IMG/VR virus record: IMGVR_UViG_3300021142_001088
Span: 1 to 41,810 of that record
Origin: a virus
Length of the DNA: 41,810 nucleotides
Strand: one strand, 5' to 3'
Within the stretch, counting starts at the first letter, position 1, and each line of letters starts with the position of its first letter. The notes beneath the pieces were generated by a model, which saw nothing but the letters and a program-made list of their open reading frames with translations, was not told the DNA's origin and made no database searches. Both the position numbers and the translations under genes were made by a program. Positions 18,428 through 40,617 of this stretch are shown in pieces.

Positions 18428-19618
18428 TTACGGGAGATTTCCAAACCAGTCTTTACCGTAATCATCATCTATATTCAAAACTGTCTGCCAAACGATACCA
18501 TCTTGCTTAAAGTAGGATGGTTTATCCTCAAGCTCGTCTATTGTGACAGGAAGAGGGGGTAGTTCTTCCTCAATCTGTCTCATTTTCTCTTCATAAAGCT
18601 TCTGACGAATATCAAAAGAGGTTAAATCTTTGAAGTATTGCTGGGCAGTCAACCAAGCAAATAGAACCAGACACATAGCCAGATCGTCATGATTTCCTTC
18701 TTCGGCAGCATAAGTTCCGTCTCTTTTAAGAACAAAGGTAGAAAGTTCTTCTATAATATTGAAATCTTGAACAATAAGTCTAATGTTTTCAACCAATTCC
18801 TTTAGAGCATTACACCCCTGTCTTTTGACTCTTTTGGTAGTTTTAATACCAAGTTGCTTAGTTCTTCCCTGTTGGCTGAGATAATATTTACCGTTGGCTT
18901 CCTCTCCGTGGAACATGTTGTCATATTCCAGTTCGTAGAACACCAAGTCACAAACTTGAGCACCAACGTCATTATTTTCGATAACCAGATAAGCATCATT
19001 GTAATACTTGGCGGTATTTACTATAACGTTAGGAAACAACATAGGCGAAATTACGTTATTTCTATACTTAGCCACAATCTTGAAAGGTTCCTGAGAGGTA
19101 TCAAAAACAAGAAAAGCCGCATAGTCTAGTCCAAGTCCTCTGGATGGATCTGCCACTAGAATGTAAAAGTGACCTGGAACTGGTTCTTCGTAAAGCTCCA
19201 ATCCTTCCAGAATTTTCTTGATGGAACGAATAAAAGCCATGCTCTTAAGAGCAGCAGAGGAAATGAGAGTTCCAGAACTTCCAAGGAAGGTACAGTTGTG
19301 CGAAACCAAATCATTAGTATAGTATCGACCCCATTTATCAACATTCACTAAATCGTAAACATATTGATTATCTTTTATTGGGACTATATCTTTTACAATT
19401 TTTTTTGATAAAACGTCACCAGATTTTATGATGTTAGCGTGAATGAATGTGTGTTGATCTATTTCGAATAAATGGTCTTTTGTGCAAGTTATCTCACTAC
19501 CGTCAATAAATTTTATTTTTAATAAATTCGAAGATAGTTTTCGTTTGATATCTGAAAAATCAGACCAACCATCAGGGGTCAGAACTTGATATTGTTCGTT
19601 AATTTTAGTTTCTAACAT
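18428..19618 (-). CDS. 17: gp17 large terminase, C-terminal half with split-intein C part
   Basis: This 396-residue ORF starts with an intein C fragment (residues 1-108) fused to the nuclease half of terminase (109-396). The nuclease domain cuts concatemeric DNA at headful packaging. Its RNase-H-like acidic residues are visible in LVADPSRGLGLDY, LVIENNDVGAQVCD and GNHDDLAMCLVLF. The extein begins with Cys109 in CTFLGSSGTLI, which continues the sequence that stops at residue 596 of the N-terminal gene. The first 14 bases overlap the end of the HNH gene, so translation is probably coupled. Without trans-splicing this protein lacks the ATPase domain. Confidence 0.93.
   Translation of the reverse strand: MLETKINEQYQVLTPDGWSDFSDIKRKLSSNLLKIKFIDGSEITCTKDHLFEIDQHTFIHANIIKSGDVLSKKIVKDIVPIKDNQYVYDLVNVDKWGRYYTNDLVSHNCTFLGSSGTLISSAALKSMAFIRSIKKILEGLELYEEPVPGHFYILVADPSRGLGLDYAAFLVFDTSQEPFKIVAKYRNNVISPMLFPNVIVNTAKYYNDAYLVIENNDVGAQVCDLVFYELEYDNMFHGEEANGKYYLSQQGRTKQLGIKTTKRVKRQGCNALKELVENIRLIVQDFNIIEELSTFVLKRDGTYAAEEGNHDDLAMCLVLFAWLTAQQYFKDLTSFDIRQKLYEEKMRQIEEELPPLPVTIDELEDKPSYFKQDGIVWQTVLNIDDDYGKDWFGNLP
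19295..19618 (-). mobile_element. Split intein, C-terminal fragment (108 aa)
   Basis: Residues 1-108 of the C-terminal terminase gene. Intein block B is CTKDHLF (residues 45-51, with the TxxH pair Thr46 and His49), block F is YVYDLVNVDKWG (86-97), and block G ends in LVSHN (104-108) followed by Cys109 as the +1 nucleophile. These make a class 1 splicing site. The fragment contains everything after block A, which is the atypical split seen in known terminase inteins such as AceL-TerL (short N part, long C part). Confidence 0.92.
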
Positions 19619-20201
19619 CTACAATCCCATCTTTCCAAGTTTTATTTTTAATAATTTGTCTTATTAGAGTATCAGAAACTTTATATTTTTTTGATACTTC
19701 TTTACAAAAAAGATTATCGTATGTGAGTATCTTCCCATTTTTTGATTTTGTTCCTATTAGTTTTGAGTCAGCTAAGTCAATTTTATCAAAATATTTTTTT
19801 TTAATTTCATCAACTTCTTTTTTACTCAGTTTAGAAGGTCCCCCAAATCTTTTTCCAGTCCTATCTGTTTTTAATTTGTAACCTTTTTTATTTTTATTCC
19901 AAGGAACATTTCCAATTTTTGGACCAGATCTACCAATAAGCTCTGGTCTTTTTTTACCAGTTTGTATTTTTGAAATATAATCAACAGGAAGCTCCATCCT
20001 TTTTGATATTAATGCAACGGCACCCCAATCTTTTTGCTGATAATGTATATCAAAATGTTCTTGTATAGAAATACACATTAAATTATTAATATCATTATTG
20101 TTTCTATCACCGTCTTTGTGGTGTATTTCATAACTTCTACCTTCGTCATCTTTTGGTATTTTTCCAAAATGTTGTTCCCATATTCTTCTGTGTCTACTCA
20201 T
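19605..20201 (-). CDS. Free-standing HNH homing endonuclease between terminase halves
   Basis: A 198-residue HNH nuclease lying between the two terminase genes. The N-terminal domain has YEIHHKDGDRNNNDINNL (residues about 24-41) and EHFDIHY, giving the H-N-H pattern. The middle is basic (NKNKKGYKLKTDR), and the C-terminus has a helix-turn-helix-like DNA-recognition segment, FCKEVSKKYKVSDTLIRQII. It has a strong AAGGAG ribosome site and its own consensus late promoter. A likely role is to cut unbroken terminase alleles and spread the split arrangement. Known fractured phage genes often carry such a nuclease in this position. Confidence 0.93.
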   Translation of the reverse strand: MSRHRRIWEQHFGKIPKDDEGRSYEIHHKDGDRNNNDINNLMCISIQEHFDIHYQQKDWGAVALISKRMELPVDYISKIQTGKKRPELIGRSGPKIGNVPWNKNKKGYKLKTDRTGKRFGGPSKLSKKEVDEIKKKYFDKIDLADSKLIGTKSKNGKILTYDNLFCKEVSKKYKVSDTLIRQIIKNKTWKDGIVDVRN

Positions 20202-20223
20202 TTTAACTCTCCTTGTTTTATTT

Positions 20224-20231
20224 TATTTATA
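20224..20231 (-). promoter_or_regulatory. T4-type late promoter of HNH gene
   Basis: Exact TATAAATA on the minus strand in the 49-base gap after the terminase N-terminal gene, 23 bases before the HNH ATG. It would also transcribe the C-terminal terminase gene. Confidence 0.75.
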
Positions 20232-20250
20232 AAACTTAGAAAGTTACACT

Positions 20251-22134
20251 CTATTCTATTTTAGAGTATAGCTCGCCAATTGTAATTTTTTCTATTATAC
20301 CAGTTACTTTATTTTTTACTGTTATAAGTGTGTCCTCGCCAACACATTCCATTTCTTGTAGATATTTTTGTTCACCAAGAACTCTTTTTTGTCCTGCTGC
20401 CCATTCTTCTGTTCTTCCAGGAACTTGACGCCAGTTGGCTTCGATGGTTTTGAATCCATTAACACCTTCTTCAGCTTCCTTCCATATCTTATAGAAGTGA
20501 TTCATACCATTAGGAGTTGAAGATATTAGAATCTTAGATGTCGTACCAGAAGAAATTGTAGGAAACACAGATGAGAAAAATTCTTCTGCGACATTGTTTG
20601 GAACGAAGGCAAATTCGTCAAGATATAAAAAATTTATAGAATAACCACGGGATGCGCTTGATGACGTTGAATCAGCTAGAATACGACAATTGTTTTCTAA
20701 TTCGATATCACCTTTGTTCCATCCTTTGACACCCTGCTGTAACCATAACGGAAGTTCTTCATAAGCGAGTTTAATGCGATTAAGAATTTCGCGAGCAGTC
20801 TTTGCTTTGTTAGCCAGAATGGCAACGAACTTATCTTCCTCGAAAAGAATATACCAAAGAAGATAAGCAACAACCGTTGTAGTATTATGAGTTGGTATCA
20901 TTGTTCTACCACACAGGAAAAGATGGTTTTCAGCATCTACTTGAATACAGCGAACAGGAACAGAATTTGTTCTTTCTATTGATTCAATATAGATATTCTT
21001 CACCTGACAATTTCCTATGATATTTTTTTGTCTTGCCTTTTTTCTTTCAAGAGAAAAAAGTTTAAATTTGTCGGTGGTACATCTTATCTTGAAATAAATT
21101 TCTCCATTTATTATTCTTGAAGACTTTCGAGTTTTTATTCCTAGCGAAGTCAGAACAAAACGAACTTGATCAATAAGAGTCTCATTTTTTTGGTCGAATT
21201 CACATATACCATTTTTAGAGCAATAGCCATCAGAGTCCATAAGACCACGAATCAAAGACAGTCTTGATTCGAGAGAAGATCTCATATAATTTTCTGGTAT
21301 ACACTTATTTCCAAGAACCCCTATGTTTTTTAATTTTGGTAAGATCTCGTATATACCAAAATATCCGACATTAGGGGATCTTTTATCTGGTCTGAAATCT
21401 GTTATTTTGTATGTTGGTGTTAGTTTGTTTTTATAATGGTTATAATCGTCAATAGAACAAGTGATTCTGGCCGCGTCAGTATGACCATCTCCCAACCACA
21501 ATCCAAGCAAGTACGGATCTATTTGAAAAGATTCGTCTTTGTTTTCAAAATCAATATAATCAGATATAGGGATAGAAATTCCTTTGCTGGATTTTTTGGT
21601 TTTCTCCAATATCTCAACTAGATTTTTTGTTGTTGTTGTGATCTCTTTCTTATCAACAACAACAGTCCACATATGTTCAGCATCAGCAACAATTGTTTCA
21701 CCATTATCAAACTTTACACGAAAGCAAACATGGTCGTGCATGATATCTGTAGCAAATGTTACTTGTGTTAGCTTACCGTCAGTACCATAGATATGATCAC
21801 CAATTTTCAGATCACCCATAGTAGACCACCCATCGGTGGTTAGAATTGGGGTGTTTATATCAAGTGCCTTACCTACTTGACGACCAGCCTTCATCACGAC
21901 AAAACGATTATTTTCAATATCGTCTATAGTCTCTTTTTGAAAAGGATATAGATCAATATTGATAAAACCTCTATCTAGTGTTACGATCTTAACATAATTC
22001 TGAGCAAAGTAAATAGGATCATTTTTACATTTGATGTACTCACGAAGATGTTCTTCTGTGAGATTAAATGGAACTCCTACCTTTTTTAGTTTAGGATTTC
22101 CTAGATAACTATTTTTACGATTTATTGGATTCAT
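20251..22134 (-). CDS. 17: gp17 large terminase, N-terminal half with intein and split-intein N part
   Basis: A 627-residue ORF containing the terminase ATPase half broken by two intein parts. Residues 1-89 and 418-596 are terminase. Joined, they restore Walker A GRQVGKTTT; Walker B with the catalytic Glu is LYLDEF (503-508) and the coupling motif is ISSTPNG (537-543). Residues 90-417 are a complete intein. Residues 597-627 are a split-intein N fragment, after which the gene stops. The predicted spliced terminase (89 + 179 + 288 residues from the second gene) is 556 residues, similar to T4 gp17 (610). Its start overlaps the end of gp16. Confidence 0.95.
   Translation of the reverse strand: MNPINRKNSYLGNPKLKKVGVPFNLTEEHLREYIKCKNDPIYFAQNYVKIVTLDRGFINIDLYPFQKETIDDIENNRFVVMKAGRQVGKALDINTPILTTDGWSTMGDLKIGDHIYGTDGKLTQVTFATDIMHDHVCFRVKFDNGETIVADAEHMWTVVVDKKEITTTTKNLVEILEKTKKSSKGISIPISDYIDFENKDESFQIDPYLLGLWLGDGHTDAARITCSIDDYNHYKNKLTPTYKITDFRPDKRSPNVGYFGIYEILPKLKNIGVLGNKCIPENYMRSSLESRLSLIRGLMDSDGYCSKNGICEFDQKNETLIDQVRFVLTSLGIKTRKSSRIINGEIYFKIRCTTDKFKLFSLERKKARQKNIIGNCQVKNIYIESIERTNSVPVRCIQVDAENHLFLCGRTMIPTHNTTTVVAYLLWYILFEEDKFVAILANKAKTAREILNRIKLAYEELPLWLQQGVKGWNKGDIELENNCRILADSTSSSASRGYSINFLYLDEFAFVPNNVAEEFFSSVFPTISSGTTSKILISSTPNGMNHFYKIWKEAEEGVNGFKTIEANWRQVPGRTEEWAAGQKRVLGEQKYLQEMECVGEDTLITVKNKVTGIIEKITIGELYSKIE
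20254..20346 (-). mobile_element. Split intein, N-terminal fragment (31 aa)
   Basis: After extein LQEME (ending at residue 596) the protein continues CVGEDTLITV and ends 31 residues later at SKIE. The first Cys and the GEDTLI segment are intein block A. The N fragment contains only block A and is far shorter than in canonical split inteins of about 100 residues. The partner is the 108-residue fragment at 19295-19618. The splice would join Glu596 to Cys109. Confidence 0.92.
20884..21867 (-). mobile_element. Class 3-type intein with LAGLIDADG endonuclease in terminase Walker A
   Basis: A 328-residue insertion between Lys89 and Thr418 of the terminase gene. It begins with Ala, not Cys or Ser, and ends THN before +1 Thr. 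Three separated residues match the class 3 'WCT' signature: Trp67 in block B (EHMWTV), Cys307 in block F (RCIQVD, where most inteins have Asp) and Thr326 in block G (PTHN). Two LAGLIDADG helices, LLGLWLGDG (120-128) and LIRGLMDSDG (205-214), keep their acidic residues, so the homing nuclease looks intact. Confidence 0.9.
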
Positions 22135-22537
22135 TCTTAATCATTTTCAAAAGTTCAGTAGTGGAACCATTAAAGATTATCGCTTTATCAATACTAACTT
22201 TAGATGAACCATCAGTCTCAGATGTAAGTTCTTTCTTATCTTTCTGTAGCTTTAGAAGCTGATGAGCGGCATCAGCTTGTGTTTTTAATAGATTAGCCAG
22301 AACTTCTGCGGCTCTTGGATGCTGTCCCTCACGAAGAATATCCATCATCATATCCACAGCTTTTGCGCTATTTTCAACTACATCGTAAATATTGCGGCGA
22401 GCATATTCAGCATCATCTTCAATCTTTGAATCAGTTGTTGTTAATTCTGTCTTTTCTCCAGTGACATGCTCTTTATCTTCCACTATCTCAACATCAAAAA
22501 TGTCAGTCAGTGGGTCATTTGAATTTTCAGTAGTCAT
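22115..22537 (-). CDS. 16: gp16 small terminase subunit
   Basis: Regulatory subunit of the packaging motor, which forms a ring and helps the large terminase recognise and cut DNA. I choose the ATG at 22535-22537 (140 residues), because an upstream start would overlap gp15. The chain is helical: an acidic N-terminus, then a central region AEVLANLLKTQADAAHQLLKLQKDKKEL that forms a coiled coil. It overlaps the large terminase start by 20 bases. T4 gp16 is 164 residues. The assignment rests on helical content and order between gp15 and gp17. Confidence 0.88.
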   Translation of the reverse strand: MTTENSNDPLTDIFDVEIVEDKEHVTGEKTELTTTDSKIEDDAEYARRNIYDVVENSAKAVDMMMDILREGQHPRAAEVLANLLKTQADAAHQLLKLQKDKKELTSETDGSSKVSIDKAIIFNGSTTELLKMIKNESNKS

Positions 22538-22541
22538 AATA

Positions 22542-23546
22542 TTATATATGTTCTGTAATACTCTCAATAAAACCAAAGCTTGTTTCTAAGTTTGCGTTTG
22601 GTGGATTTGGTGTGACTTCTATCGTCACCATTGTTGAGGAAGTTGGCTCTATACTTAATGGTCTATGTGAAGCTTTTGTGATTGTTCCAATCACGTTTGA
22701 TGTGAGATTAAAATCACCAGTTCTACAAGTAATGACTAGTGTATTGCTTGTTGGGTCCCATGATGAAACTTCGGCTGTAGCAGTCGATTCAGAAAGGAAT
22801 CTTCCTTGATATACTATTTCTCCAAACTGATAATCACCAAATCCTGGATTTAGAGTCAATGATAGGCTATTACCTCTTGATCCAGGATAGCTATTGATAT
22901 TACCTTTGGCATCAAGAATAATCTTGCCACCAGCGTTGACTGGACCAAAGAACCATGTCTTCATTTTAAATCTTAAAGTCCATATTAGAACACGCACAGT
23001 TGTAGATGTATCACCTTCATACTGATTGCTATAATCAACGGATTCAAGAATGATGGGAACGTCTCTTACAATATCCATAGAATCAACGAAGGTCATTGAT
23101 AGCGTATAATCTGGATTGAAGTATGGAAAAATCTGTTCAACAATCTGAGTTCCATCTTCCACATTGCGAACATACACATCGACTTCAAAATCAATATTGT
23201 AAGGCACACCAGCATACTGTTGATTTACTGATGTTCTATCATTTGGATTTGGACTAAAATTACTATTAAATGAAGAGGTCTTTCTGGTTTCATCATACGC
23301 AATATTTGTCATTTCAAATGACATTCTAGGAAGTAAAATCTGAATCTGTTTATGTAGATCAGGATTGCCGTATAGACGAGTAATAAAATCTTCTTTACCA
23401 GCGTAAGTCAAAGGAACAGTTATACGATCAATTTCGTTAAGAGTATCCTTTTCATATCGGACCAATTGAATATGCTTAAAAAGCGTACCAAACGCAACAA
23501 CTGTACGTCTAAGAGTTCTATAGTAAAAATGTTGATTTGATAGCAT
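22542..23546 (-). CDS. 15: gp15 tail terminator / sheath stabiliser
   Basis: Caps the tail tube and sheath at the neck. The first about 215 residues match the T4 gp15 pattern: NQHFYYRTLRRTVVAFGTLF, RITVPLTYAGKEDF, QILLPRMSFEM and the RVLIWTLRFKMKTWFFGP segment. At 334 residues it is longer than T4 gp15 (272). The C-terminal part carries an extra small beta domain (GEIVYQG, then STATAEVSSW, then NVIGTITKASH) that is also found at the end of gp14 in this genome. The ATG directly follows the stop of the preceding gene (TAAATG). Confidence 0.93.
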   Translation of the reverse strand: MLSNQHFYYRTLRRTVVAFGTLFKHIQLVRYEKDTLNEIDRITVPLTYAGKEDFITRLYGNPDLHKQIQILLPRMSFEMTNIAYDETRKTSSFNSNFSPNPNDRTSVNQQYAGVPYNIDFEVDVYVRNVEDGTQIVEQIFPYFNPDYTLSMTFVDSMDIVRDVPIILESVDYSNQYEGDTSTTVRVLIWTLRFKMKTWFFGPVNAGGKIILDAKGNINSYPGSRGNSLSLTLNPGFGDYQFGEIVYQGRFLSESTATAEVSSWDPTSNTLVITCRTGDFNLTSNVIGTITKASHRPLSIEPTSSTMVTIEVTPNPPNANLETSFGFIESITEHI

Positions 23547-26500
23547 TTACCAGGTATCCCCACTCCAAGCAACGCGCTGCCATATATTACCTGTCTGCGG
23601 AGATTGTAAGTAAGTAATATTTGGAGAGTCACTGATATCAGCATCAAGATAAATTATATAGCTTGGACCATATCCAGTAGTATTAAGACTATTTGATAAT
23701 ACGTTAGCTGTTTCTGTTCCGTTAGAAATCATCCACCCAGCTCCTGGAACAGGTTGCCCATCATAACCAGACCAGTAAGGAATCCAATAAGTATTGGCTC
23801 CGTATTGTTGGTTAATCCAGCCATAAGGATTTGGATTAATAGAAGAAATTCCAGGATATGTATAGATAACAGCTCCTTGAAAGTTTTCAGCACAATAAAA
23901 AAAGTGTGTACTATTTGCCGAAATCATTCCGACAACATCTCCAGATTGACCTCTTGATGTTGTTGGTACATATACCACAGCAAGTTTTTGTCCAGATGAA
24001 AAAAGTATTGGATTGAAAAATTTCCAATTTCCAGATGAATCAACTTCAACACTTTCATAACCATTATTATAGAATTGTATGAATCCGTCGCCACTTGAGA
24101 ACATTCCAGTATCAAACGCACCATCATTTTGGAAACTGTATCCGTGACCATCAAGAGAACCTTCGGTGGCTAGAACCTGATTTACAAGAAATCTTCCACC
24201 CGTATCCAATATTGCTGTTGCTGAACTATTGGATAATGTTGAACCGCCACCAGCACCGCCACCAGCACCATATTGAGTATTGTTGCTGTACTTAATTACG
24301 CCATTATTTGGAATAATTAAATTCCCATCTTTGTCGAAGTTCCAAGTAACAGTATAATATTGAGTATTCGCAGAGACATATACATTACCCGAATAAGATT
24401 GGATGAACATATCTGATGGAGTATTTGGATCATTTGGAATGTATATCTGACCCCCACCATTTCCACTAAAATGAATGCTTTGTCCAGTCAAATATAATTG
24501 ATCAAATTCTGGTTGATTATATGTGTTAAGTGGCTGGTCAAACAGATCAGCAGCAGTATACTGCACTGTGCTATCTGGAAAAACAAGAGCAGAAGTATTA
24601 GCAAAACTCCATTCTGTGATTACATTGTAAAGACTTACATTGTAGTTTCCACCCAATACTGAAACAGAAAGATCTCCAGTCTGTTGTGATAGAGTTCCAG
24701 GTGTTACATTTAGAGTGATGTCGTTAACTAGTATATTTTCGTTAAGATATGGAAGTCTTGATTTAGCATAAGCAAATGGTCCAGCAGTTCCAAGACCAGT
24801 TCCATCTGTAGGAACTCTTAACAACAATGCTTTAAAATGATCATTTGATGTGTCGATTCGTGTGAATGCGGCAATTGACATAAAGCTATTTTTAACAGCA
24901 AGAGGTTTATCTGGAGAATACCCCCACTGAATATATGTTGGTGAGCCAATACCAGTCAGGTCTTTTAATTGATTTATCCAAATTAAATTACCATTGACAA
25001 CTTCAACTTTGGCAATAAATAATGTATTCTGATCATTAAATGTATTCTGATCATTAAAAATGGTATACATCGATCCAGTTAAATACAAGTTTCCATTCTC
25101 ATAAACTATACCAAAACCAGCCGCACTATAATTACATCCAAAATCTGAAAATCTTTTTGACCAAACTAGACTACCATTGGTGTCCAATTTTACAAGAAAA
25201 GCTGGATAGCCTTCTGATGAAGAATATGCCCCAGAAAATACATAAACATTATTATTTTCATCAGTAACTACATTGAAACCGTAACCAGATGTGTTATTGA
25301 ATTGTCCAACAATTGTTTTTTCCCAAATTCTTGCTCCACCAGCATTGGCGTATTTACCGACGTAAATGGTATCACTATTATTAGGAGCAGTTATTAAATA
25401 ACCAGTAACTACAACATTATCTTGCTTATCAATTGCTAGATTGAAATCTGTCTCATTATTTGTGTTGTATAGGAAATTATGGTATAATAGGTTTCCTGAC
25501 GAATCAAACTTACACATCAAAATTCGAGTTACATTATTACTATTATCTACCATCTGACCAACAGTGAACACATTACCACTTGAATCGCTAGCAATAGCAA
25601 ATTCTGATTGTCTATACAATCCTGTTAAATTTGTTTGCCAAATAATATTTCCATCTGTGTCCATTTTGACAACATAGGAATTATTTTGAGGATTATAAAA
25701 TTCATCTAGAGATAAGAAAATATTATCGCTAGAATCAATGAATAAAGCATCGCTAAACTTATATGATTCGCTAGGACTTCCAATCTGTTTCTGCCAAATT
25801 TCATTACCACTCGCATCAAATTTAACAACATAATTAGTATTTGATGAATTATCATCACCACCAAACAAATAAGAATTATTATTACTGTCTATAACAACAC
25901 TTGAACCGTAGTTATTATTTGATGTCGTAAAATCACCAATAGTAGCAATCCAAGAAATATTGACGTTTGATTTTATGATGATAGGCTCATTATTTTGAGC
26001 CGTTGATATGACATTATTATCGAATATGATGTTACCAGTATTTGATCCGCCAGTAAATAGATCACCATTTAAGTAATACTCACTAGCATTGATTGAGCCA
26101 GAGCCCATATCTTCTCCAGATGTATTACCTATGAAAATACCACCATTATGTCCTAGTGTTAGAACTGAACGCTGATTTAAAGAATCCCATAGAAATAGCT
26201 TGTTTCCACCAACAACTGCTTGCCACTTCACTGTTGGAGATCCAAAGTAGTCGTCTGTGATTGTTAAAGCAACAAAATCTCCTGGAGAGCCACCATCCAA
26301 TACTAAAGCACTTTCGCCATTAGATGTGCTATCTGGATGCTGAATAACAACAGTAGAAACATTTAAATCTGTTGGTTTTGGAAAAATATACTGACCAGTA
26401 ACACTATTGTATATTACAGAAGCAGCACCAAATACACCGTTACTATTGAACTGTAGCTGACCAGTATTTCCAGAAACAGAATTCAAATTAGCTTTATTAT

Positions 26501-26663
26501 AGGCAGCGTTTGCTTGTTCTACAGCGTTGCTCTGCATGTTGGCAACATTAGCCAAATGATTTTCAATAGCCACATAGTTAGTATCGAATATCGACAGATT
26601 CGCATGTTGCGGCTGTGTAAATATTCTGATTGGAATTGGAAAATCGTTTGATGTGTAAGTCAT
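23547..26663 (-). CDS. Large beta-propeller virion protein inserted between gp14 and gp15
   Basis: A 1038-residue probable adhesin or neck/tail fibre. Residues 1-110 resemble N-termini of marine phage fibres (QANAAYNKAN, GQLQFNSNGVFG). The region of about 235-640 has roughly seven repeats of the SBBP/beta-propeller kind, such as VVKFDASGNEIW, VVKMDTDGNIIW and LVKLDTNGSLVW, each about 55 residues. The C-terminus has SRGQSGDVVGMIS...FFYC and ends IWQRVAWSGDTW, a motif frequent at phage fibre ends. No such gene lies here in T4. Role in binding is inferred. Confidence 0.85.
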   Translation of the reverse strand: MTYTSNDFPIPIRIFTQPQHANLSIFDTNYVAIENHLANVANMQSNAVEQANAAYNKANLNSVSGNTGQLQFNSNGVFGAASVIYNSVTGQYIFPKPTDLNVSTVVIQHPDSTSNGESALVLDGGSPGDFVALTITDDYFGSPTVKWQAVVGGNKLFLWDSLNQRSVLTLGHNGGIFIGNTSGEDMGSGSINASEYYLNGDLFTGGSNTGNIIFDNNVISTAQNNEPIIIKSNVNISWIATIGDFTTSNNNYGSSVVIDSNNNSYLFGGDDNSSNTNYVVKFDASGNEIWQKQIGSPSESYKFSDALFIDSSDNIFLSLDEFYNPQNNSYVVKMDTDGNIIWQTNLTGLYRQSEFAIASDSSGNVFTVGQMVDNSNNVTRILMCKFDSSGNLLYHNFLYNTNNETDFNLAIDKQDNVVVTGYLITAPNNSDTIYVGKYANAGGARIWEKTIVGQFNNTSGYGFNVVTDENNNVYVFSGAYSSSEGYPAFLVKLDTNGSLVWSKRFSDFGCNYSAAGFGIVYENGNLYLTGSMYTIFNDQNTFNDQNTLFIAKVEVVNGNLIWINQLKDLTGIGSPTYIQWGYSPDKPLAVKNSFMSIAAFTRIDTSNDHFKALLLRVPTDGTGLGTAGPFAYAKSRLPYLNENILVNDITLNVTPGTLSQQTGDLSVSVLGGNYNVSLYNVITEWSFANTSALVFPDSTVQYTAADLFDQPLNTYNQPEFDQLYLTGQSIHFSGNGGGQIYIPNDPNTPSDMFIQSYSGNVYVSANTQYYTVTWNFDKDGNLIIPNNGVIKYSNNTQYGAGGGAGGGSTLSNSSATAILDTGGRFLVNQVLATEGSLDGHGYSFQNDGAFDTGMFSSGDGFIQFYNNGYESVEVDSSGNWKFFNPILFSSGQKLAVVYVPTTSRGQSGDVVGMISANSTHFFYCAENFQGAVIYTYPGISSINPNPYGWINQQYGANTYWIPYWSGYDGQPVPGAGWMISNGTETANVLSNSLNTTGYGPSYIIYLDADISDSPNITYLQSPQTGNIWQRVAWSGDTW

Positions 26664-28485: not shown

Positions 28486-29277
28486 ATGAATATCGTGACT
28501 GGATATAAGGGATTTATCGGTTCTCACCTCATGAATCGTGTAAAAGACCCCGTTGGCTTCGATATTGTAAACTGTTTTGATCTTATTGATTCCTTTGAAG
28601 AATGGAAGGATGCTGACTGTATTTATCATATGGGAGCCATTTCTGACACCACCGAGACTGACTTTGACAAGATTTATACCTTTAACATCTATTATACAAT
28701 CAAACTCTTTGAAAAATGTATCGAATATGGAGTTCCCATTAAATATGCCTCATCTGCCTCCATATACGGAAACTCCGAAATACCACTACAACTCAATCCT
28801 TTAAACCTATATGCCATGTCTAAGGCCACCATAGACCTATGGGCTGGGGATAATCTTGAAAAGTTCAAGCATATACAGGGTTTTCGTTTCTTTAACGTCT
28901 ATGGCAATGGAGAGGATCATAAGGGCAATCAAGCCAGCCCAATTCATAAATTCCGTAAGGAAGTGGAGGAAAAAGGAACCATCTCTATTTTCGAGGGTTC
29001 TCGCGAATTTTGGCGAGATTTCGTATGTGTAGAGGATGTGTGTCATATTATGCTAAACAATGAGCTTCCTTCTGGAATATATGATCTGGGCTCTGGAATC
29101 ACCTGTTCTTTTCAAACTGTCGCAAAAATCATTAAAGACAAGTATGGTGGAGAAATAAAGACAATTCCTTTTCCAGATCACCTAAGAGGTAAGTATCAAA
29201 TACACACCTTCTCTAATAATCCAAAGTATAAGTATAAATTCAAGGATCTCTTTACTTGGATTCAGGAACAGACTTAA
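28486..29277 (+). CDS. NAD-dependent sugar epimerase/dehydratase (HldD-like)
   Basis: An extended short-chain dehydrogenase, 263 residues, shorter than typical bacterial members (about 310). The nucleotide-binding motif is GYKGFIGSH (residues 6-14). The catalytic segment is SSASIYG and then YAMSK (Tyr and Lys). FRFFNVYGNGEDHKG resembles ADP-glycero-manno-heptose 6-epimerase and related nucleotide-sugar enzymes, so a heptose-type substrate is likely but not proven. It is the only plus-strand gene, with a sigma70-like promoter, and converges with the glycosyltransferase gene by a 26-base overlap at the 3' ends. Confidence 0.92.
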   Translation: MNIVTGYKGFIGSHLMNRVKDPVGFDIVNCFDLIDSFEEWKDADCIYHMGAISDTTETDFDKIYTFNIYYTIKLFEKCIEYGVPIKYASSASIYGNSEIPLQLNPLNLYAMSKATIDLWAGDNLEKFKHIQGFRFFNVYGNGEDHKGNQASPIHKFRKEVEEKGTISIFEGSREFWRDFVCVEDVCHIMLNNELPSGIYDLGSGITCSFQTVAKIIKDKYGGEIKTIPFPDHLRGKYQIHTFSNNPKYKYKFKDLFTWIQEQT

Positions 29278-35743: not shown

Positions 35744-36949
35744 TTAAAATGATATATCAGTGACACCATATGATGTGGCATAGCCAGCAGCAACCTGCTT
35801 CCAAGTATTTATACCTCCCACAACCGATATAGGACTTGATGTATCTCCAGAATCATTATTACCAAGAGCACCGCTTATATTATATCCACAAGCCCATAAA
35901 GTTCCATCTGCTTTTATAGCAAAAAAATTATGAACACCGCAAGTACAAGAAACCCAGTTTGTTCCACCGCCAATAACAGTTACAGGACTTGATCTATTTG
36001 TTCCGTCTCCAGTTCCTAATTGCCCATTACCGTTTGAACCCCATGACCAAAGAGTGCCGTCTGTTCTAATAGCCAAAACTGATTGTGTATCACCACCACC
36101 CTCATTTATAGCCTTCCATGTAAATCCTCCCAATACACTAACAGGACTTGATCTATTTACTGTTGTTCCATCACCTAAATTTCCGTTTGTATTTTGTCCC
36201 CAACTCCACAAAGTTCCATCACTTCTTAATCCAATACTAAAATAGTTACATGCTGCCATGTCGGTCCACGTAAAGCTGCCTATAACAGCAGTAGGAACAG
36301 ATTCTGAACTTGCTGTTCCATCTCCACCCTGACCAAAACCATTGTAACCCCAGTACCACAAAGAACCATCCGTTTTTAATCCAAGAGTAAGTAATTTACC
36401 AGAAGAAACTCTATACCAGTTAGTTCCTGTAATTTTAACTGGACTTGATCTTGATAAAGTAGTTCCGTCTCCTACTGAACCGAATGAATTATCTCCCCAA
36501 CACCATGCCGTTCCGTCTGTTTTAACAGCCGCAGTGTGAGCATATCCACAAGAAATTTGTGACCAGTTTGTTCCTCCACCACTTGTTGTGGTAGGACTGG
36601 ATCTGCTCAATGTTGTACCAATTCCTAATTCTCCGTCAACATTACTTCCCCACATCCAAAGAGTACCGTTAGTTTTTACTCCTCCAGCAAATTTATCAGC
36701 ATAACCACCAGCACTAATTTGTTTCCAGTTTACACCACCACCAGAAGTTGTTCCTGGGCTAGATCTTGATGCTGTTGTAGCTCCAAGAGATCCTAACTGT
36801 CCTATCGAATTTGAACCCCAACTCCAAAGAGTACCAGCATTTAAAAGAGCGCGGGGCATGAGAATGCTAGAAAGATCACTTCCAAAAAAGTTAACGTTAT
36901 CCGTTACTCTATAGTTAACAATTGTTAAATAATTGTTGGCTAAAGTCAT
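35744..36949 (-). CDS. RCC1-repeat seven-bladed propeller protein 1
   Basis: A 401-residue protein. After about 38 residues there are seven RCC1-type repeats of roughly 50 residues, each with a GTLWSWGSN...GQLG core (for example GTLWMWGSNVDGELG and GTLWYWGYNGFGQGG). Seven repeats make a complete beta propeller. The short N-terminus may anchor it to a fibre. Its position among tail-fibre genes suggests an adhesin or fibre tip. The start overlaps the previous stop (TAATG). Confidence 0.88.
   Translation of the reverse strand: MTLANNYLTIVNYRVTDNVNFFGSDLSSILMPRALLNAGTLWSWGSNSIGQLGSLGATTASRSSPGTTSGGGVNWKQISAGGYADKFAGGVKTNGTLWMWGSNVDGELGIGTTLSRSSPTTTSGGGTNWSQISCGYAHTAAVKTDGTAWCWGDNSFGSVGDGTTLSRSSPVKITGTNWYRVSSGKLLTLGLKTDGSLWYWGYNGFGQGGDGTASSESVPTAVIGSFTWTDMAACNYFSIGLRSDGTLWSWGQNTNGNLGDGTTVNRSSPVSVLGGFTWKAINEGGGDTQSVLAIRTDGTLWSWGSNGNGQLGTGDGTNRSSPVTVIGGGTNWVSCTCGVHNFFAIKADGTLWACGYNISGALGNNDSGDTSSPISVVGGINTWKQVAAGYATSYGVTDISF
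35806..35813 (-). promoter_or_regulatory. Possible internal late promoter for the sugar cassette
   Basis: Exact TATAAATA on the minus strand within the 3' part of RCC1 gene 1, 76 bases before the sulfotransferase ATG. The distance is longer than at other late promoters here, so it may be chance. Confidence 0.4.
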
Positions 36950-39303: not shown

Positions 39304-40617
39304 CTATTGTCCTATCGCAAGAGTGTAATCGCCACCAGCGGAAACTTTAATCCAATTTATATTAGATGGAATCTGAGTTGGACTAGATCTTGAATTTGCG
39401 GTAGTTCCATCACCAATCTGACCGAAGTTATCATTACCCCACATCCATAAAGTCCCGTCTGTTTTTACAGCAGCCATTATCGAAGAATTGTTTGCGAACG
39501 ATCCAGAGATCCCCCCAGAAGGCCCACCCACATCGACTTGCTTCCATGTTGTTCCTCCACCCGCTACGGTGTTTGGGCTCGATGTACTTGACGCAATAGG
39601 TGTATTTTGACCTAATGTTCCAGTAAAGTTAGAACCCCAAGTCCAAAGAGTTCCATCTGTTTTAATACCAGCCATTGAAAACATTCCTACAGCCACACTT
39701 TTCCATGAAGCCGAGCTAATAGAACCAACAACTGTCACTGGGCTAGATATACTTGTTGCTGTTGGTCCATTTTGACCAAGCATACCAGCGATATTAGCCC
39801 CCCATGTCCATAAACTACCATCTGACTGTATAGCAGCAAATGTTGTGTAATTATTATTAGCTGAAATACCAGAAACCCACCCAGAACTTCCAGTCGCAAC
39901 TTTGACCCAGGGTTTTCCAGCACTAGGTACTGATGCTGGACTTGATATAGAAGCAGAAGTAGCACCGAAAGAACCCAATTGCCCTACTTGATTTGAACCC
40001 CATGTCCATAAAGTTCCGTCTGATTTAATAGCGGCGCATGTTGTTCCATCATTTGCTAAAGCTATCCAGTTTGTTCCGCCACCAGCAGTTGTTACTGGGC
40101 TTGATTTAGCTACACCAGTATTATCTCCTAATTGACCATAGTTGTTTGAACCCCATGTCCATAAAGTTCCATCTGATTTAAGACCAGCAGTTGTACAATA
40201 ATATGTAGTAGTACCACCTACTACTTGAAAGGCAGCATTTCCAATAGAAACATCTTTCCAGTTTGTTCCACCACCAGCAGTTGTTACTGGGCTTGATTTA
40301 GCTACACCAGTATTATCTCCTAAAACACCGTTAACATTTGTACCCCATACCCATAATGTACCATCTGATTTGACTCCAGCAGAATAAGTGTTTCCTCCTA
40401 GTGTTGAATGGACACTAGTAGATATTTTTATCCAGTTTGAACCACCACCAGATGTTGTTACTGGACTGGATCTGGGTGCGACTGTATTATCTCCCAATTG
40501 CCCAGTTCCATTATATCCCCAAGCAAATAGTTTATTACCAATAAATTGATCAAACAATTCATAGTCTGTAAAAAATATTCTAGAAAAATCATTATTAGCA
40601 GCTAAGAATCCTGTCAT
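39304..40617 (-). CDS. RCC1-repeat seven-bladed propeller protein 3
   Basis: A 437-residue RCC1 protein, the longest of three. The short N-terminus (MTGFLAANNDFSRIFFTDYELFDQF) is followed by seven repeats (KLFAWGYNGTGQLG, GTLWVWGTNVNGVLG, GTLWTWGSNNYGQLG, GTLWTWGSNQVGQLG and so on), some with longer loops. Two blades share a 66-base nearly identical DNA segment. The start overlaps the preceding fibre gene stop (TAATG). Confidence 0.88.
   Translation of the reverse strand: MTGFLAANNDFSRIFFTDYELFDQFIGNKLFAWGYNGTGQLGDNTVAPRSSPVTTSGGGSNWIKISTSVHSTLGGNTYSAGVKSDGTLWVWGTNVNGVLGDNTGVAKSSPVTTAGGGTNWKDVSIGNAAFQVVGGTTTYYCTTAGLKSDGTLWTWGSNNYGQLGDNTGVAKSSPVTTAGGGTNWIALANDGTTCAAIKSDGTLWTWGSNQVGQLGSFGATSASISSPASVPSAGKPWVKVATGSSGWVSGISANNNYTTFAAIQSDGSLWTWGANIAGMLGQNGPTATSISSPVTVVGSISSASWKSVAVGMFSMAGIKTDGTLWTWGSNFTGTLGQNTPIASSTSSPNTVAGGGTTWKQVDVGGPSGGISGSFANNSSIMAAVKTDGTLWMWGNDNFGQIGDGTTANSRSSPTQIPSNINWIKVSAGGDYTLAIGQ
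40065..40130 (+). repeat. 66-base direct repeat inside RCC1 gene 3, copy A
   Basis: The segment starting TCCAGTTTGTTCCGCC and ending ATTATCTCCTA recurs at 40257-40322 with one mismatch. It encodes the same part of two propeller blades and could support blade gain or loss by recombination. Confidence 0.9.
40257..40322 (+). repeat. 66-base direct repeat inside RCC1 gene 3, copy B
   Basis: Second copy, 192 bases after copy A, differing at one base (A for G). One blade length separates the copies. Confidence 0.9.

Follow-up and report, generated by a model that had tools for sequence, protein, structure and literature searches.

A large terminase gene interrupted by a class 3 intein and broken by an atypically split intein around an HNH nuclease gene

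Introduction

How does a virus obtain a working packaging motor when the gene for this motor is interrupted by one intein and broken in two at the site of another? The question is raised by a viral DNA stretch of 41,810 nucleotides (nt) (IMG/VR record IMGVR_UViG_3300021142_001088, positions 1 to 41,810; in the following the window), in which the large terminase TerL (gp17) is coded by two separate open reading frames (ORFs) on the minus strand with an HNH endonuclease gene between them. Judged from the sequence, TerL must depend on one cis and one trans splice, as follows from the anatomy of the locus. Very probably the terminase is made as two chains which are joined in this way, with the HNH protein acting as a homing endonuclease. 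The arrangement is of a known kind: by its sequence it belongs to the fractured genes, with a TerL intein that is atypically split in the manner of AceL/Cat. The combination of inteins is recurrent and not unique; the value of the locus lies in its allelic series and in a site-specific nuclease domain.

Split inteins are among the main tools of protein engineering, and their origin is known mostly from isolated end states. The window and its relatives offer a stepwise allelic series and a split intein moving as one block. Furthermore, they show a nuclease domain that keeps to one terminase site and occurs with two catalytic families.

Anatomy of the terminase locus

The broken gene comprises three minus-strand ORFs, 22134-20251 (627 amino acids, aa), 20201-19605 (198 aa) and 19618-18428 (396 aa), which follow the small terminase gene and are followed by a tail sheath gene. 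Their segments, including the N- and C-terminal fragments of the split intein (IntN and IntC), are listed in Table 1; the split site is called site B below. The segment boundaries are the splice junctions that rebuild a T4-type TerL, and the exteins (89 + 179 + 288) add up to a terminase of 556 aa. They match Pfam Terminase_6N (9e-12) and Terminase_6C (3e-12), PHROG 36964 (7e-135) and the structures of T4-type gp17 (1.5e-35 to 3e-33). An original prediction, made from the letters alone, had placed gp17 over two ORFs with an intein in Walker A, a 31-aa IntN, an HNH gene and a 108-aa IntC; all coordinates were confirmed, and the Pfam, PHROG and gp17 structure matches bear out its claim that the spliced exteins restore a terminase. 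No tRNA genes, looked for as insertion sites, were found in the window.

Table 1 Features of the terminase locus in the window
Feature	Position	Strand	Matches and remarks
Small terminase (gp16)	22115..22576	-	PF11053; phrog_445 1.3e-30; directly upstream of TerL ORF 1, overlapping
TerL N-extein part 1, 89 aa, to Walker A lysine (GRQVGK)	21868..22134	-	PHROG terminase
Class 3 intein, 328 aa (ALDINTP...IPTHN), with LAGLIDADG endonuclease domain	20884..21867	-	PF14528, PF05204, 6rix
TerL extein part 2, 179 aa: remaining ATPase domain, Walker B LYLDEFAF, motif SSTPNG	20347..20883	-	
IntN, 31 aa, CVGEDT...LYSKIE, then TAG stop	20254..20346	-	
TATAAATA, T4-late-promoter-like motif	20224..20231	-	23 nt upstream of HNH start
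HNH endonuclease gene, 198 aa: I-TevIII-like catalytic domain and site-specific C-terminal domain	19605..20201	-	
IntC, 108 aa, MLETK...LVSHN	19295..19618	-	ATG overlaps 3' end of HNH gene by 14 nt
TerL C-extein, 288 aa (CTFLGSSGTL...), nuclease domain, including stop	18428..19294	-	gp17 nuclease domain 3c6a 1.5e-35

An assembly or frameshift error interrupting an intact gene has practically no probability left, and nothing was found in its favour. A second contig of 12,008 bp (L077, the same as L006/L073; L numbers denote related loci) shows the complete broken layout and matches the window at 100% identity from end to end; it may share reads with the window. A 5.35-kb contig from another sample (L005), covering only the HNH tail, IntC and C-extein, is 99.94% identical. 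The split layout recurs at 75-80% identity in L015, L016 and L044, which rules out an assembly error, and the same break is also seen with another nuclease in many loci. The original prediction had allowed that related reads might show one continuous ORF; in these three relatives the gene is split as in the window.

The class 3 intein in Walker A

Class 3 inteins are defined by the lack of a nucleophile at position 1 and by a triplet of Trp B:12, Cys F:4 and Thr G:5 (PMC5222942). The Walker A intein starts with Ala1 (ALDINTP) and has no Cys, Ser or Thr nucleophile at this position; Trp B:12 (ADAEHMW), Cys F:4 (PVRC) and Thr G:5 (PTHN) are all present, followed by a Thr at +1. With Ala1 and the triplet in place, the earlier assignment of a full class 3 intein to Walker A is upheld. 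The triplet is conserved in the aligned Walker A inteins of L046, L049 and L056.

The best solved match is the class 3 intein MchDnaB-1 (6rix, 1.6e-28), which extends from Ala1 to the terminal HN and spans both ends of the splicing domain. Ala1 and the triplet are likewise shared with MsmDnaB-1 (6bs8; PMC7664689). However, both solved inteins are DnaB inteins of 139-146 aa (PMC7664689), whereas that of the window lies in the Walker A motif of a phage terminase and carries a LAGLIDADG domain (PF14528, 1.2e-8; PF05204, 1.3e-5).

In one relative (L008 4172-5011, also in L044) the Walker A intein conceals, in another frame, a 279-aa ORF for an EDxHD/Vsr-like nuclease (PF18741, 1e-4); the intein's own frame stays open across the same 840 nt. 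The same Walker A intein without the hidden ORF is found in L010.

The split intein at site B

The atypically split TerL inteins AceL-TerL, GOS-TerL and Cat possess an IntN of 15-37 aa and are split near helix 1 (PMC13014065). The IntN of the window, with 31 aa, falls within this range, and it is split near helix 1 as well. The best solved intein match of IntC is CatC, of the consensus atypically split intein Cat (6dsl, 5e-15). All catalytic residues are present, namely Cys1, the block B His, the terminal His-Asn and Cys+1, the last three of these features being kept in 17 of 17 rows of the IntC alignment. Purifying selection is indicated by ratios of nonsynonymous to synonymous substitution (dN/dS) of 0.05-0.24 for extein part 2 (E2), IntN, IntC and HNH; in E3 and in some of the IntN pairs, dS has reached saturation or is not reliable.

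For structure prediction an in-frame homologue from L008 was chosen because it is a single chain, standing in for the split fragments of the window; the window IntN is 87% identical to this homologue in L007-L010. It folds as an intein (predicted local distance difference test, pLDDT, 84), and 57 PDB entries match the model at E<=1e-3, among them Cat and VidaL (Foldseek 2.6e-7 for Cat). Helix 32-38 of the model corresponds to IntN residues 23-29. An IntN of 31 aa ending at helix 1, a CatC-like IntC and a homologue modelled as an intein agree with the atypical split intein that had been proposed.

The likeness to AceL-TerL, GOS-TerL and Cat thus comprises a short IntN (about 25-30 aa) split after helix 1, a long IntC, a terminase as host gene and Cys+1 (PMC13014065); for AceL-TerL it is a likeness by description in that work, the sequence comparison having been made to Cat. 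In contrast to these three, the window adds a class 3 intein in Walker A, and its gap holds an HNH gene with a site-specific domain.

From these parts the following maturation is proposed. In chain 1, the ATPase half, the class 3 intein would excise itself in cis and restore Walker A. Its terminal IntN (31 aa) would pair with the IntC (108 aa) at the start of chain 2, the nuclease half, and trans-splicing would ligate ...QEME to CTFLG..., linking the ATPase and the nuclease domain.

Two other explanations for the halves have to be considered. As judged by the gp17 alignment the split lies near the boundary of the two TerL domains, so the halves could act as separate, unligated ATPase and nuclease subunits with the intein pieces as remnants. 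This is very unlikely: IntN and IntC keep every splicing residue and are under purifying selection, the same intein is fused in frame in L008/L010 and stays open, and splicing would be required anyway because Walker A holds an intein too.

Alternatively, a self-splicing intron carrying the HNH gene might unite the halves as RNA; RNA splicing of this type is reported for the split TerL of phage ICP1 (PMC10448857), and genes of the I-TevIII-type HNH are indeed annotated as intron-like endonucleases in T4-like phages. Such an intron is still less probable and was rejected, since Rfam gave no match at the locus even at E<=1, which includes the catalytic RNA of a group I intron at the break, nor in the window at the gathering cut-off. 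Moreover, the stretch removed as an intron would contain two conserved protein-splicing fragments, and the resealed allele described below encodes both of them in frame. Joining by protein splicing is the reading followed here.

The nuclease between the halves

The HNH gene matches PF13392 (HNH_3, 1.5e-15); by sequence it has no match in the PDB. Its catalytic half resembles the I-TevIII-type HNH of T4-like phages, sharing 48.5% identity over 97 aa with genes whose annotation reads intron-like endonuclease or I-TevIII. This match stops before the C-terminal half, which is specific to the TerL intein site.

In the first round, a profile of the C-terminal half detected GIY-YIG nucleases of the same TerL gap (L021, 6e-9; phage VP-1, 1e-7; further L029, L045, L065 and L038) and no nuclease at other terminase sites. 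When 50,697 phage records were searched with the C-terminal half, the only match was the VP-1 nuclease at the same site. Among viral contigs, the HNH alignment retrieved 16 further full-length homologues (L093-L108, 42-53% identical), all 16 at TerL site B with an IntC beside each, and none of the matches confined to the catalytic half lies at site B. By these comparisons no nucleases but those of this TerL site carry the C-terminal domain, which is joined to either an HNH or a GIY-YIG domain; this is new. Because homologues and profile matches all sit at site B, it appears as one putative DNA-recognition domain that keeps to this site and is combined with either of two exchangeable catalytic domains.

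In the Vibrio phages VP-1 and K469 (L002 1837-4053; L003 1-1962) the IntN is fused in frame to the GIY-YIG nuclease. The IntC ORF has a different frame and is located at the end of the nuclease or overlaps this end.

Fractured genes, reportedly introduced by Dassa et al. in 2009, are said to be enzyme genes broken by a split intein with a free-standing endonuclease between the halves. A Vsr-like endonuclease family is reportedly emphasised, occurring in half of the published loci, without being a required feature. The window shows the same arrangement of a broken enzyme gene, split intein and endonuclease gene. However, its nuclease belongs to HNH_3 and is not Vsr-like, the split is at the N-terminal atypical position, and relatives exist in which the nuclease is gone and the halves are fused again. 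A comparable case is the PolB of Pseudomonas phage MIJ3, where an ORF for an HNH homing endonuclease is located between the halves of an essential enzyme; there, in contrast to the window, the host gene is a DNA polymerase and one intein is reported (PMC6892783).

Transfer of the intein-nuclease block

If the HNH protein is a homing endonuclease, as predicted, its C-terminal domain presumably recognises this terminase site, so that the whole IntN-HNH-IntC block would spread as one mobile unit into terminases without it. The comparison of L015 and L016 is in line with this. Their IntN (100%), HNH gap (99.8%) and IntC (99.1%) are virtually identical, and their exteins are far less so (E2 80%, E3 67%, N1 67%). 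Because the identity rises and falls at the intein ends, IntN, HNH and IntC appear to home as a unit. The sequences document a movement of this unit between two phages that have diverged, its breakpoints coinciding with the ends of the intein; this observation is new. The block has the marks of a homing element, being always at the same site and transferred with breakpoints at its ends.

The transfer is seen in the L015/L016 pair only. Over seven loci HNH, IntC and C-extein are equally well correlated in their distances (r about 0.93), and so co-transfer with the intein is there not separable from plain vertical descent.

Probable loss of the HNH gene and contiguous inteins

Near-identical alleles exist, as read from the assembled contigs, with the HNH gene present (L044), deleted (L064) or removed in frame, the intein being contiguous again (L008/L010); this series is new. 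Among them IntN and the visible part of IntC show few differences or none, and the exteins are 92-97% identical. In L008 the sequence TCTAAAATAGAAT is directly followed by TGAGACTATCGATG, which gives one open frame of IntN, four residues (LRLS) and IntC. The bases coding for this linker correspond to the 3' tail of the L044 HNH gene, and the two alleles differ by a clean indel (GAAT/TGAGAC in L008 and GAAT/AGAGTG...AAAGA/TGAGAC in L044). L064 is still split, the HNH body being absent and short pieces of both HNH ends remaining. These scraps lie about 120 nt from the contig end; since the contigs of L064 and L044 end within IntC, after 78 and 116 nt, the intermediate still needs confirmation by reads. 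Alleles of the L008 type are internal to four contigs from four samples.

The likely order is that the HNH gene was lost and the intein then resealed in frame. Read in the other direction, which the clean indel equally permits, the contiguous allele of L008 and L010 would be original and the HNH gene a later insertion, a question that concerns the history of the relatives only. This order is unlikely: L008/L010 are nested within HNH-bearing alleles in two trees, and on this ground resealing is favoured. Furthermore, the divergence between lineages is about equal for HNH (81-83% nt identity) and IntC (77-78%), and L064, albeit close to a contig end, retains scraps of both HNH ends. In two other contiguous cases (L018/L020 and L061) the closest relatives are split as well.

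With the HNH gene lost or the halves fused again in relatives, breakage looks reversible. Probably, then, the splitting of inteins is naturally reversible, with a split state with HNH, a split state without it and a contiguous state joined by a four-residue linker from the HNH tail, within a group of terminases with up to three inteins at four sites, two of them split, and with a motor coming from three genes. The split and resealed forms (IntN 87%, IntC 78% identical) provide a natural matched set for cis versus trans function.

Expression of the C-terminal half

The HNH insert may also contribute to the expression of the second chain. The T4-late-promoter-like motif TATAAATA is found at the same insert position in every HNH-bearing allele read and is followed by AGGAGAG, which resembles a ribosome-binding site. 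Four of the five TATAAATA sites of the window are followed, within 80 nt and on their own strand, by a start codon. Position and conservation suggest that TATAAATA could serve as a promoter. The insert would then bring a late-type promoter, and with the HNH stop overlapping the IntC start it would supply late transcription and coupled translation of the C-terminal half. After loss of HNH, the gene could stay split or be fused back in frame.

Three points weigh against the proposed two-chain terminase and its expression. The count of TATAAATA in the window is near chance (5 seen, 3.4 expected), and the predicted structure of the class 3 intein is poor (pLDDT 56) and too weak to use. In addition, the material is a metagenomic contig; among bacterial genomes no relative of the site B IntC was found in GTDB contigs, which therefore give no indication of the host.

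Insertion sites in other terminases

A terminase profile run over the collected loci revealed four insertion sites in TerL: A in Walker A, C in Walker B, D in motif III and B, the split site of the window. Site B is split in more than 20 distinct TerL clusters and contiguous in four; the loci were collected via their IntC, and such counts therefore give no overall frequency of these terminases. No nuclease is present in the site B gaps of L058 (435 nt) and L054 (564 nt).

A cis intein at A together with a split B is present in the window, L046, L049 and L055/L056 (class 3) as well as in VP-1 and L044 (class 1-like). As far as the sequences tell, at least five TerL lineages have this combination, and in some relatives the gene is broken at two places; both findings are new. 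The original prediction had regarded a full and a split intein in the same terminase as singular, and this part did not stand. Both A and C are split in L018/L020, where B is contiguous; L026 and L060 have splits at C and at B, and in L054 splits at A and B go together with a full intein at D. From this locus and its relatives it seems that even an essential packaging motor can cope with one to three steps of protein splicing.

In L018 (2331-7116) and L020 (690-4485) three genes make up the terminase, with splits at Walker A and close to Walker B. The gaps hold nuclease-like ORFs (GIY-YIG in the second gap of L018), site B carries a contiguous mini-intein, and two trans splices and one cis splice would be required. 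L054 and L055/L056 have near-identical terminases and a LAGLIDADG intein at motif III in both, with different inteins in Walker A, a split one with a DUF559/Vsr-like nuclease in L054 and a class 3 cis intein in L055/L056.

Broken terminases are also present in deposited phage genomes. TerL is split at site B in the Vibrio phages VP-1 and K469 and at site C in PspYZU05 and Campylobacter phage Los1. In the T4-like isolates PspYZU05, G2494 and Fletchervirus, the IntC relatives turned out to be located at the Walker B site of TerL and not at site B. In the complete genome of the Fletchervirus Los1 the TerL halves lie about 24 kb apart on opposite strands with a related intein. They carry IntN and IntC ends at site C (L081, KX879627.1 8-625 and 24983-26311) and are annotated as DNA packaging protein, the intein not being mentioned in the annotation text shown. 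Escherichia phage G2494 (L083 1245-4356) has a TerL split at site C with the IntN fused to a nuclease-like ORF, annotated only as misc_feature.

Other genes of the window

Outside the terminase locus, a 1038-aa ORF (23547-26663) has no PHROG match at 1e-3. Two genes (35744-36949 and 39304-40617) match PHROGs named regulator of chromosome condensation, with RCC1-like repeats. The sole good-sized gene on the plus strand (28486-29277) encodes a nucleotide-sugar epimerase.

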